Below are positions 6,178-25,036 of a DNA stretch of 37,999 nucleotides, one piece after another. The stretch's first letter is position 1. Each line of letters starts with the position of its first letter. Source of the stretch: Candidatus Nomurabacteria bacterium RIFOXYB1_FULL_39_16 (GTDB taxonomy: Bacteria > Patescibacteriota > Minisyncoccia > Phycocordibacterales > UBA9973); contig MFWB01000008.1 of the NCBI GenBank assembly GCA_001787205.1, positions 35,802-73,800 on the forward strand, written 5' to 3'. The position numbers were made by a program, and so were the translations under genes. The notes under the pieces were generated by a model. It saw only the letters and a list, made by a program, of their open reading frames with translations, did not search any database and was not told the DNA's origin.

Positions 6178-6954
6178 ATGATAATTATCAAAACAAAAGA
6201 ACAAATAGATACAATACGCGAAGGGTGTAAAAACTTGGCGACTGTGCTTTATAAAGTGGGGGAGAAGGTCGCCCCCGGTATTTCTACGAAAGATTTGGAT
6301 ATTTATGCCGAGCAATTAATTCGCGAAATGGGAGACATTCCCGCTTTTTTAAATTATCGTCCCGAGGGAGCGAGCTCACCATTTCCGGCTTCTTTATGTA
6401 TCTCCGTGAATGATGAAGTGGTGCACGGCATTCCGAATAAAAATAAAATTTTAAAAGAAGGGGACATCGTGTCCCTTGATTTGGGTACTAAACACAAAGG
6501 ACTTTTTACCGATATGGCTATCACTGTGCCCGTCGGCAAAGTCAGCCCCGAGAATTTGAAACTTATGCAAACTACCGAGCAAGCGCTCCAGGTAGGCATT
6601 GATGCCGCCAGGGCGGGGAACACAGTAGGAGACATAGGTTATGCGATAGAGAGCTACGTCCGCGGGCAGAAGGAGCGTAAATACGGCATTGTGGAAGTTC
6701 TCGCCGGGCACGGCGTGGGTATAGCAATTCACGAAGATCCATTCATTCCAAATTTCGGGAAACAAGGCAAGGGAGAGAAACTCGTGCCGGGGATGATTGT
6801 CGCTTTGGAGCCGATGCTTAATCTTGGCACTAAAAATGTGACCATAGATGACGACGATTGGACCTTCCGCACAAGAGACCGCAAAAACAGCGCGCACTTT
6901 GAACATACTATTTTAATCACTGAAGGTGAAGCAGAGATTTTGACAAAAATTTAG
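6178..6954 (+). CDS. map: Methionine aminopeptidase type I
   Basis: MIIIKTKEQIDTIREGCKNLATVLYKV...; ...GHGVGIAIHEDPFIPNFG...LEPMLNLGT... Confidence 0.95.
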   Translation: MIIIKTKEQIDTIREGCKNLATVLYKVGEKVAPGISTKDLDIYAEQLIREMGDIPAFLNYRPEGASSPFPASLCISVNDEVVHGIPNKNKILKEGDIVSLDLGTKHKGLFTDMAITVPVGKVSPENLKLMQTTEQALQVGIDAARAGNTVGDIGYAIESYVRGQKERKYGIVEVLAGHGVGIAIHEDPFIPNFGKQGKGEKLVPGMIVALEPMLNLGTKNVTIDDDDWTFRTRDRKNSAHFEHTILITEGEAEILTKI

Positions 6955-7036
6955 GAAAATACTTTTTCTCAGGTCCTCGGTTTCCTGGGTCCCTATCCCA
7001 GCCAGACCATTCAAAAAAGTATTTTCCTAAATTTTT
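6945..7036. other. Structured 3'-UTR element, copy 1: 23-bp perfect outer stem with conserved core
   Basis: AAAAATTTAGGAAAATACTTTTT (6945-6967) / AAAAAGTATTTTCCTAAATTTTT (7014-7036); core CTCAGGTCCTCGG...CCAGACCATTCA also present at 15892-15925. Confidence 0.85.
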
Positions 7037-10537: not shown

Positions 10538-11158
10538 ATGGCAAAAGATATTGAAGTGGAAATTAGAGGCATATTAAATAAGGACCAATATGATCAAACT
10601 AAAACTCTGTTTGAGAAATTGGCGTCCTTGAAAGAAAACAAAAGCCGCATTTTAATCGATTACTCAACTTTCTTGCCTGGAGAGGGTATTCGCGATAGAC
10701 AAAAAGATATAAGGGTGCGGGTGACAAATGGAGTTCCAGAAATTGTAGTCAAACTTGGTTCTTGGGGCGGGTCCGAGAGCAGAAGAGAACTTTCATTTAA
10801 AGGAAAAGAAGGAGAATTTGAAACACTCGTGGAAATATTCGGACAGCTTGGTTTTACGAAAGGCACATTGGCAAAACGCGATGCACTTGTTTATGACTAT
10901 AAAGATATAGAATTTGCTTTGGTTAAAACACCGGGTCAACATTACTATTTTGAAGCTGAAAAAATGGCGCACAATGAAGAAGATTTTACAAAAGTGGAAA
11001 ATGAAATTAGGGAAGTGTGCCAAGAATTGGGACTAGCAGTCGTTAATAAAGAAGGATTCTTTGAATTTATTGATGAATTAAATAAGACAGATAATTCAAT
11101 TTTTGAATTTAAAGATTTTAAAGAAAATTATTTTAAAAATAAATTTGAAAACAGATAG
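10538..11158 (+). CDS. CYTH-domain protein
   Basis: MAKDIEVEIRGILNKDQYDQTKTLFEKLA...DIRVRVTNGVPEIVVKLG...; EIE/K-type CYTH signature. Its TAG stop lies inside the left hairpin of the adjacent RAYT unit. Confidence 0.75.
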   Translation: MAKDIEVEIRGILNKDQYDQTKTLFEKLASLKENKSRILIDYSTFLPGEGIRDRQKDIRVRVTNGVPEIVVKLGSWGGSESRRELSFKGKEGEFETLVEIFGQLGFTKGTLAKRDALVYDYKDIEFALVKTPGQHYYFEAEKMAHNEEDFTKVENEIREVCQELGLAVVNKEGFFEFIDELNKTDNSIFEFKDFKENYFKNKFENR

Positions 11159-11175
11159 AGCCTTAGACTCTATCT
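11152..11175. repeat. Left terminal hairpin of RAYT element
   Basis: CAGATAGAG CCTTAGA CTCTATCT; reverse complement of the right hairpin over 24 nt. Confidence 0.9.
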
Positions 11176-11187
11176 AATACTTACCCA

Positions 11188-11850
11188 ATGAGAAAACAAT
11201 CAATAGTTACAAATGAATATTACCACATATATAATCGTGGGGTAGATAAAAGAGATATTTTCAATAACCAAAGAGACCTGAATCGTTTTATTGAAAGTAT
11301 GTATGAATTTAATAAAGTTGATGGGGTGGGAAGTTTGGCAAATTTAAGAAAAATCGAAACAAAATACAAACCCCTATCTGAACCACTGGTTTCCATTGTT
11401 GCGTATTGTTTAAATCCAAATCATTTTCATTTTATATTAAAACAATTAATGGATGGTGGAATAGCTAAATTTATGCAAAAGTTACAAGGAGGATATACAT
11501 ATTATTTTAATGTAAGCAATATTCGTTCGGGAGCACTTTTTCAAGGAACTTTTAAATCATATCTTATTGATGATGAAAATTATTTCAATAAAATTATTGG
11601 GTATGTAAATAAAAATTATAAAATTCACAATATTCCAAAAAATAAAACAAAATTTATTTTTGCCAGCGATCACGAATATGAAAATAACAACTTTAAGCTC
11701 GTTTCCAAGAAAGAAGGGAAGTCCGTTTTAAAAATTTTTAACGGTAGTGATAACTTTAAAAAGCATTGTGATGAAATTGTTGACATTATAAGAAAAGTTA
11801 GAGGAAAAAACTCTCTTTTAGAAGAAGATAATTTACCAGATAGAGTCTAA
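11188..11850 (+). mobile_element. REP-associated tyrosine (Y1/HUH) transposase
   Basis: MRKQSIVTNEYYHIYNRGVDKRDIFNNQRDLNRF...; HUH-like NPNHFHFILKQ; 220 aa between inverted hairpins. Confidence 0.9.
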
Positions 11851-11861
11851 GGCTCTATCTG
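11837..11861. repeat. Right terminal hairpin of RAYT element
   Basis: CAGATAGAG TCTAAGG CTCTATCTG; overlaps the transposase stop codon (TAA 11848-11850). Confidence 0.9.
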
Positions 11862-15867: not shown

Positions 15868-15950
15868 GTAAAAAATAAAAAACAACTTTTTCTCGGGTCC
15901 TCGGAAAAAATCCCCAGACCACTCGAAAAAGTTGTTTTTTATTTTTTTAC
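15868..15950. other. Structured 3'-UTR element, copy 2 (bidirectional terminator between convergent genes)
   Basis: GTAAAAAATAAAAAACAACTTTTT (15868-15891) / AAAAAGTTGTTTTTTATTTTTTTAC (15926-15950, one bulge); core CTCGGGTCCTCGG...CCAGACCACTCG. Confidence 0.85.
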
Positions 15951-17153: not shown

Positions 17154-17621
17154 ATGGCTAGTTATGCAGAAAATAGAAAAGCGAGATTTAACTACGAATT
17201 TTTGGAAAAATACGAGACTGGTATTGAGCTTGTTGGCACGGAAGTAAAATCAGTGCGAAGCGGGCAGATGTCCTTGGAAGGGGCTTTTGTCATCATTCGG
17301 GGAGGGGAAGCATTCTTAATCAATTCCAATATTCCGCCCTTTCAGCCTAAAAACGCGCCTTTGGATTATGACCCCCTTCGCAACAGGAAACTTTTATTGA
17401 CTAAAAAAGAAATAAAAGAATTGTCAGAAAATGAGAAAAACAAGAGTTTGACAATTGTGCCTATTTCAGTGTATAATAAAAACAGAAAAATCAAATTGGA
17501 GATTGCCTTAGCGAAAGGCAAGAAGAAATTTGATAAACGCGAGACTATCAAAAAACGCGAGACGGATCGCGAGATAAGAAGAGAGTATAAAGACCTACCT
17601 GCCGGTAGGCATGGACGTTGA
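17154..17621 (+). CDS. smpB: SsrA-binding protein SmpB
   Basis: MASYAENRKARFNYEFLEKYETGIELVGTEVKSVRSGQMSLEGAFVIIRGGEAFLINSNIPPF...FDKRETIKKRETDREIRREYK; tail DLPAGRHGR encoded by a palindrome. Confidence 0.95.
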   Translation: MASYAENRKARFNYEFLEKYETGIELVGTEVKSVRSGQMSLEGAFVIIRGGEAFLINSNIPPFQPKNAPLDYDPLRNRKLLLTKKEIKELSENEKNKSLTIVPISVYNKNRKIKLEIALAKGKKKFDKRETIKKRETDREIRREYKDLPAGRHGR

Positions 17622-17632
17622 AAATAAAATTC

Positions 17633-18016
17633 GGGACTGCAAGGCATAGACAGTTGGCCTTTTGTTCTTGATGCATACCGAGAATGAACGTAATCTCGTA
17701 AAAATTCGTTCAAATGTTAATTGCAAAATTAACTTCAGCACAAGAGTCTCCATACTTCGGTATGATTTCTTTTGCTCTAGCTTTCGCGTAAGCCTAGGCT
17801 AGTGTCTCTCTTATAGACTTCCGATATATAAGATGGGGCATCATATTATCGGGATAGGGGAAAGAATGTCCTGACTTCCTTCCGAAACAAAGGGACTCGA
17901 TTAAAAAATATTTGGCTCGCTTAAGAATTTTTTAATCTAAACAAAAAAAGCGCGCTATGTATGTAGACTTCTTTGCAAAAACCTTCTGCACCGGGGTTCG
18001 ATTCCCCGCAGTTCCA
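17633..18016 (+). ncRNA. ssrA: tmRNA
   Basis: 5' GGGACTGC pairs with 3' GCAGTTCC (one G-U); T-arm CGGGG TTCGATT CCCCG; tag ORF 17723-17791 encodes AKLTSAQESPYFGMISFALAFA*; immediately downstream of smpB. No encoded CCA. Confidence 0.85.
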
Positions 18017-18020
18017 CTAC

Positions 18021-24472: not shown

Positions 24473-24507
24473 GTTATCAAACTTAACGGCCGTCACAAAG
24501 TGATAAC
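24473..24507. repeat. Quasi-palindromic repeat, copy A
   Basis: GTTATCAAACTTAACGGCCGTCACAAAGTGATAAC; 7-bp outer arms plus ACGGCCGT core; near-identical to copy B. Confidence 0.88.
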
Positions 24508-24509
24508 CA

Positions 24510-24992
24510 CTAATTGTTTCGTTTTGTTATTTTAAAAGTTTTAACATTCTTTCTGATGTTTAGATCCTCCAAGCGTTTTAAGAAAGACAAAGGCAGGGGA
24601 CTAGGACCAAGCCACAGGCTTTGTTGCAACATTTTATATCCGAATATTTTTAACTGATTTCGCAGCCAGTAGCGTATTTTCCTGTCTACTTCAGGAATAT
24701 CAAAAGAAACAATCATAGATGTTGCTGAGTCTTTTTTGAAAGGAGAAGAAATGTAACTTAATAAATGGGTCTCTTTTAGTCTCCTTATTCCTTCTTTCGA
24801 CATTGACCAGCCCAATTTAGAGTTGTTTATGTAGCCCTTTTTGTGTAAACGCGAGAGGGCGACTTTTACGCTTTCCTTCTTGTATTTTTTGAATTCACGT
24901 TCATGCAATATTCTATGAAAAGATCTGGTGCTCTTGCCACTTGTTAAGGTTGCAATGAGAAGATTTGTAATACTAGGCGAATTGGTATACAT
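24510..24992 (-). CDS. PaaX-like regulator / Cas2-like (ferredoxin-fold) protein with N-terminal winged helix
   Basis: MYTNSPSITNLLIATLTSGKSTRSFHRILHEREFKKYKKESVKVALSRLHKKGYINNS...TSMIVSFDIPEVDRKIRYWLRNQLKIFGYKMLQQSLWLGPSPLPLSFLKRLEDLNIRKNVKTFKI. Confidence 0.65.
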   Translation of the reverse strand: MYTNSPSITNLLIATLTSGKSTRSFHRILHEREFKKYKKESVKVALSRLHKKGYINNSKLGWSMSKEGIRRLKETHLLSYISSPFKKDSATSMIVSFDIPEVDRKIRYWLRNQLKIFGYKMLQQSLWLGPSPLPLSFLKRLEDLNIRKNVKTFKITKRNN

Positions 24993-25000
24993 ATCTATAG

Positions 25001-25036
25001 GTTATCATACTTTAACGGCCGTCACAATATGATAAC
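25001..25036. repeat. Quasi-palindromic repeat, copy B (upstream of the PaaX/Cas2-like gene)
   Basis: GTTATCATACTTTAACGGCCGTCACAATATGATAAC; 9-bp perfect outer arms GTTATCATA/TATGATAAC. Confidence 0.9.

Follow-up and report, generated by a model that had tools for sequence, protein, structure and literature searches.

Rickettsia palindromic elements (RPEs) are short palindromic repeats of a bacterium with a reduced genome, found both in intergenic regions and in frame within conserved enzymes (Ogata et al., 2000, 2002; reviewed in PMC10969869). Coding palindromes are also known from the mitochondria of Nematomorpha, where near-perfect palindromes are located in essential genes, stay perfect while their sequence changes, and are gained and lost (PMC6649704). 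Dispersed short palindromes are furthermore typical of REP/RAYT and MITE-like repeats. To our knowledge, no transposase is known for RPEs.

The feature described here is probably a member of a dispersed and mobile family of palindromic DNA repeats of Nomurabacteria-type Patescibacteria, very small bacteria of parasite-like character, that works in an RPE-like manner. As with RPEs, it is a dispersed palindromic repeat (slightly shorter than RPEs, which measure about 100-150 bp) and it is inserted in frame in the ORFs of unrelated genes. This likeness is one of description, and there are differences: in the present element the arms are site-specific, the core being the sole part in common; all six frames are used, whereas RPEs encode a conserved peptide in a preferred frame; and the palindromes persist, whereas a loss of repeat identity has been reported for RPEs (PMC6649704). 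With the palindromes of Nematomorpha, the element has in common nearly perfect inverted repeats in essential coding genes that are kept perfect while changing, but the former have no core in common and are located within conserved coding sequence, whereas here the core is dispersed and the palindrome is mostly an insertion. In contrast to REP/RAYT and MITE-like repeats, it shows no constant ends or tag (REPs carry a GTAG/CGTC tetranucleotide and a palindrome of 20-40 bp), it is inserted in frame in coding sequences and it shows no visible dependence on a Y1 transposase. Finally, its intergenic copies are hairpins near gene ends, as are intrinsic terminators, but most copies lie in ORFs. We found no report of palindromic or MITE-type repeats of such a kind in Patescibacteria in the open-access library searched.

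Anatomy of the two copies in the window

The window, i.e., the whole stretch of 37,999 nucleotides that was analysed, originates from Candidatus Nomurabacteria bacterium RIFOXYB1_FULL_39_16 and contains two copies of the element, one at the end of map and one next to rplT (coordinates are those of the window):

6178-6954, plus strand: map (methionine aminopeptidase, Peptidase_M24), the gene end lying inside copy 1
6945-6967, plus strand: 5′ arm of copy 1, AAAAATTTAGGAAAATACTTTTT, a perfect 23-bp arm
6972-7008, plus strand: core of copy 1, GGTCCTCGG...CCAGACC, of the long type with an apical hairpin (6985-6989/6997-7001)
7009, plus strand: bulged A of copy 1
7014-7036, plus strand: 3′ arm of copy 1, a perfect inverted copy of 6945-6967
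15870-15892, plus strand: 5′ arm of copy 2, AAAAAATAAAAAACAACTTTTTC, a perfect 23-bp arm
15896-15920, plus strand: core of copy 2, GGTCCTCGGAAAAAATCCCCAGACC, of the short type
15925-15947, plus strand: 3′ arm of copy 2, ending on the final base of the rplT stop codon
15947-16291, minus strand: rplT (ribosomal protein L20), the gene next to copy 2, in convergent orientation

The initial annotation of this DNA had described a 3′-UTR element in two copies and had read it as a selected RNA structure. Its account of the letters themselves is accurate. The arms of copy 1 (6945-6967/7014-7036) are perfect over 23 bp, and the second copy has the same core in a different stem whose arms (15870-15892/15925-15947) are equally perfect over 23 bp. 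The GGTC/GACC inner helix and the bulged A are present in the sequence, together with the change from A-T in copy 1 to G-C in copy 2 beside this bulge, and the apical hairpin CTGGG/CCCAG occurs in copy 1 only. The map stop codon is indeed located within the 5′ arm, the ORF ending at position 6954, and the outer 10 nt of this arm are native to the gene, being its 3′ end with the stop codon. The 3′ arm of copy 1 is absent at the empty map sites of related genomes. The arms of copy 2 are A- and T-rich.

Both hairpins are unusually stable, with folding z-scores on the two strands of about -8.6 and -7.9 for copy 1 and about -7.9 and -7.2 for copy 2; none of the 200 shuffles folded as well in either case. 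The comparison with Rfam that the initial annotation had suggested was carried out, and no family reached its gathering score for the window hairpins; a permissive scan gave weak matches, mostly to microRNA-type hairpins, that were far under their thresholds. No terminator-like site (a GC stem followed by a T run) was called at either window copy.

A dispersed repeat family

Copies were searched for with the exact pattern GGTCCTCGG-N(4-30)-CCAGACC, the reversed pattern serving as a control, and true copies were told from chance matches by the pattern combined with a scoring of the flanking arms. The source genome (762,513 bases, 0.76 Mb) contains six exact cores and none in the control; the second copy first noticed is real, but a count of two was too low. 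The core of copy 2, GGTCCTCGGAAAAAATCCCCAGACC, is identical in four of these six copies. The element also extends to related genomes, in agreement with the initial annotation: one to eight copies were found in each of 45 genomes out of 100 from the same family (control, 0), and these copies are spread over six of the 25 genera represented. A true copy was detected in Candidatus Nomurabacteria RIFCSPHIGHO2_01_FULL_37_25 (L149). The median arm score is 37.5 in the family versus 9.0 in other genomes, the highest viral score being 20.5. In other phyla and among viral contigs, sequences that match the pattern have no flanking stem, and the wide genome scan mostly returned chance matches without arms in GC-rich genomes. 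A phage carrier was considered and rejected at the search sensitivity used, the matches in viral contigs being chance matches without arms.

The element is roughly 80-120 nt long, with two arms of 20-30 nt each and a core of 25-46 nt, and is present in one to eight copies per genome. A T-rich/A-rich inner stem beside the core is common to the copies; the outer stem is different in every copy and nearly always fully paired. The pairing profile starts with a short mismatch patch by the core, followed by a stem that extends to roughly position 20; positions 21-24 form a second mismatch patch, after which pairing resumes. In many copies (L007-L210), we observed a 3x3 pyrimidine-rich mismatch about 21-24 nt from the core, with TTC, TCC or TAC on both strands and GC pairs bordering it. 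The possibility that these TNC triplets at the outer ends represent a target duplication was rejected; since their two sides often differ (TAC/TCC, TTC/TAC), we read them as a mismatch patch. The core holds conserved internal loops, and several types of loop separate GGTCCTCGG from CCAGACC (a short one, AAAAAATCC, a long one with a GC hairpin, and others), one type tending to be uniform within one genome.

Copies inserted in frame in conserved genes

About 55 of the roughly 96 flanked copies fall within ORFs of 200 aa or more, keeping the frame and introducing no stop codon (this count leaves out L205, an artefact), and the other copies are intergenic. Among the intragenic copies, 33 are in genes that run with the core and 22 in genes that run against it, and they use three phases on each strand, i.e., all six frames. 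Pfam analyses identified among the host proteins several enzymes of replication and repair, namely DNA ligase A (LigA), DNA polymerase I (PolA), UvrA, UvrB, UvrC, a UvrD-type helicase and RecJ, as well as PheS, PheT, leucyl-tRNA synthetase (LeuRS), RsmA, Tgt and a RNase R-like RNB protein. Other hosts are an amidase (GatA-like), a class-V aminotransferase (cysteine desulfurase-like) and a M1 aminopeptidase. In the PheT of the source genome, the predicted insert peptide is GLAGVGDPENRGP. No stop codon was found in the LigA frame in 56 genomes or in the RsmA frame in 55 genomes.

The six-frame openness of the core (5.37) is in slight excess over that of shuffled sequences (5.06); as it is barely above this value, we do not claim that the core is built for translatability. 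Since most copies are in frame within ORFs, in either orientation, the family has no role specific to 3′-UTRs, and the designation as a 3′-UTR element should be abandoned.

Occupied and empty sites in related genomes

The genomes that we compared are mostly drafts of different species. In LigA, the insertion separates the first half of the zinc finger from the second (VEKR...SVAYYC). This site is empty in some species, the distance between CPxC and the second cysteine pair being 23-32 residues, and elsewhere contains either the core element, in either orientation, or members of no fewer than four further palindrome families. Here, the insert seems to comprise both arms. The UvrB site also holds the core in both orientations. 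The gap following map is empty in several species (e.g., L348, L357, L358, L361 and L363-L365), contains the core element in five (L337, which is the window itself, L340, L341, L346 and, in reversed orientation, L342) and contains different palindromes in further species, these other occupants reaching 1-11 nt into the native stop region. In the gap next to rplT, the element is missing in most relatives, several of which have ordinary bidirectional GC terminators. The RsmA-encoding gene is less informative, its loop being too variable among the empty genomes to identify a native arm; in L311, L316, L328 and L334, this loop contains no palindrome but short tandem repeats, in frame and with a length of about 7 nt (GCCTANN-like). 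By eye, no target duplication was recognised at the map and rplT sites in this comparison between different species.

A second palindrome family (CGGTACGGATTTTTTGAAGCTTAAAAAATCCTGAARTTYTC...), also with site-specific arms, is present in the map gap of L338, L347 and L353 and in the rplT gap of L372 and L375. Beyond this one, four or more additional palindrome families, each combining a conserved core with arms that differ by site, have insertion sites in common with the core element, and their holders, with families separated by semicolons, are:

map gap: L345, L351; L344, L349
ligA: L215, L228, L230; L229, L231, L234; L232, L235

These sites shared by several palindrome families suggest a general process in these genomes. 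They could also be explained if the core entered palindromes that already existed, neither bringing nor making its arms. At the rplT locus of G048, there is no core, and a short A/T palindrome, GTAAAAAATTAAAAA/TTTTTTAATTTTTTAC, which resembles the outer arms of copy 2, occupies the same place; at this site, it is possible that a palindrome was present before the core arrived. As a general explanation, entry into existing palindromes is nevertheless unlikely: no long palindrome was found at the empty map sites, and a similar stem length and the mismatch patch about 21-24 nt from the core recur across many copies.

Independent evolution of core and arms

For 36 pairs of copies from the same genome with cores at least 96% identical, the outer arms are 49% identical, compared with 47-50% for unrelated pairs. 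Conversely, the arms of copies from the same locus in different species are recognisably alike. Copy 1 and its counterpart after map in G040 differ in core type and have similar arms with compensatory changes (ATTTAGG/CCTAAAT to ATCTAGA/TCTAGAT), so that the covariation first seen between the two window copies holds in orthologues. The arms being unrelated within a genome and alike at a given locus, the core type appears to spread or to be homogenised within a genome, and the arms belong to the site. Concerted evolution of the cores by gene conversion would equally produce similar cores in the same genome.

At the LigA site, 97.1% of the cells are paired in an alignment of eight species (82% in shuffles), with 36 two-sided cell changes (11.9 in shuffles) and no one-sided (wobble) change. 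In the outer helix, 12 of 17 pairs have changed on both sides, and slid controls were also far lower. Over all copies, G-U pairs represent 1.7% of Watson-Crick plus G-U pairs at more than 12 columns from the core; the corresponding share in 25 tRNAs of the same loci is 6.3%. In the stems, A-C mismatches (66) are more numerous than G-U (29). The arms are coding in many copies, and amino-acid constraint is mixed with the pairing signal.

Such strong covariation is what would be expected of a structured RNA under selection, and the initial annotation had proposed a transcription terminator or a 3′-end protector, in which an internal loop might bind a protein. The stability of the folds on both strands and the conservation of the internal loops of the core agree with this proposal, and copy 2 may replace one of the bidirectional GC terminators seen in the rplT gap of relatives. 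However, selection on a RNA helix should tolerate G-U pairs on the functional strand, and the scarcity of these pairs, with no wobble intermediates at LigA, fits arm-to-arm correction in DNA. The location of most copies within ORFs in both orientations, the lack of a call for a terminator-like site at the window copies and the empty map gap of several relatives are also at odds with a selected RNA, which we consider quite improbable. The evidence thus favours a palindromic DNA repeat over a selected RNA terminator; some intergenic copies may have a secondary role as terminators.

Maintenance of the palindromes and possible mobility of the core

Template switching homogenises the arms of inverted repeats and inverts their spacers (PMC8604942), and has been put forward for the mitochondrial coding palindromes of Nematomorpha (PMC6649704). 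This process probably keeps the arms of the present repeat palindromic. A polymerase stalled in the hairpin would use one arm as a template for the other, so that the palindrome would be kept perfect in DNA and double changes would arise in one step; the same event could flip the core, which would account for the presence of both orientations at one site. The unpaired bases of the core are retained although arm conversion on its own would remove them, which implies a degree of selection on the core or of its recognition. The core may spread as selfish DNA, via some enzyme or via replication errors, and tolerance would suffice for the survival of copies that lie in frame in loops, or in spacers where the hairpin may aid termination.

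The initial annotation had envisaged that the copies might prove to be a known mobile element devoid of covariation. The repeat does behave like a mobile element, but it has no match in Rfam, we found no paper describing it, and its stems covary. No mobilising enzyme, target duplication or transposition event was found among these genomes, mostly drafts of different species. We tentatively propose that the mobile unit might be the hairpin core alone, with fold-back synthesis from the core copying the adjacent strand of the target, which would thereby supply the arms; such a spread by template switching, free of any transposase, would be common to several unrelated palindrome families. The arm that runs into the native map stop region, and whose inverted copy is missing from empty sites, fits arms supplied by the target, and its overlap with the end of map suggests that the flank was copied, at insertion or later.

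Mobilisation of a REP-type repeat by an IS200-like/RAYT (Y1) transposase would agree with the palindromic and dispersed nature of the element, and 54 of 80 genomes in the genus have Y1_Tnp genes, one of which lies in the window. Yet five genomes have copies and no Y1_Tnp match (G098, with three copies, G111, G094, G082 and G016), the Y1 gene of the window is bordered by different inverted repeats, and inspection of the aligned flanks revealed no common GTAG/CGTC-like tag at one end, which makes a RAYT-type origin very doubtful. The transposase ORF in question (11188-11850) is located between perfect 24-bp inverted repeats, CAGATAGAGCCTTAGACTCTATCT (11152-11861), which are themselves hairpins unrelated to the core. 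Excision after transcription, as for an intron, or bypassing by the ribosome could be imagined for inserts in conserved enzymes with a long stem joining their ends and conserved internal loops in the core, but the frame is open through the insert in the examined cases, which neither mechanism requires, and all phases and both orientations are used, so that we regard both as extremely improbable.

Coding palindromes thus exist outside Rickettsia, in some of the most reduced bacteria and in enzymes of replication, repair and translation. With a core that follows the genome uncoupled from arms that follow the site, and double changes without intermediates, the probably mobile palindromic repeat described here makes it testable, by comparing close strains, how such palindromes spread with no transposase in sight. 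It also raises the question, testable in the same way, of whether covariation of the kind normally taken as proof of RNA structure can arise from template switching and nothing else, and calls for caution, since compensatory changes by themselves are no proof of a functional RNA.

Other repeats in the window

Two additional features were observed in the window. The SmpB protein (17154-17621) ends with ...DLPAGRHGR just before the tmRNA gene (17633-18019), and this LPAGR end may be another coding palindrome. A 25-bp direct repeat, TTAACGGCCGTCACAA... (24483-24507 and 25012-25036, 92% identical), brackets an ORF of 160 aa on the minus strand (24510-24992).
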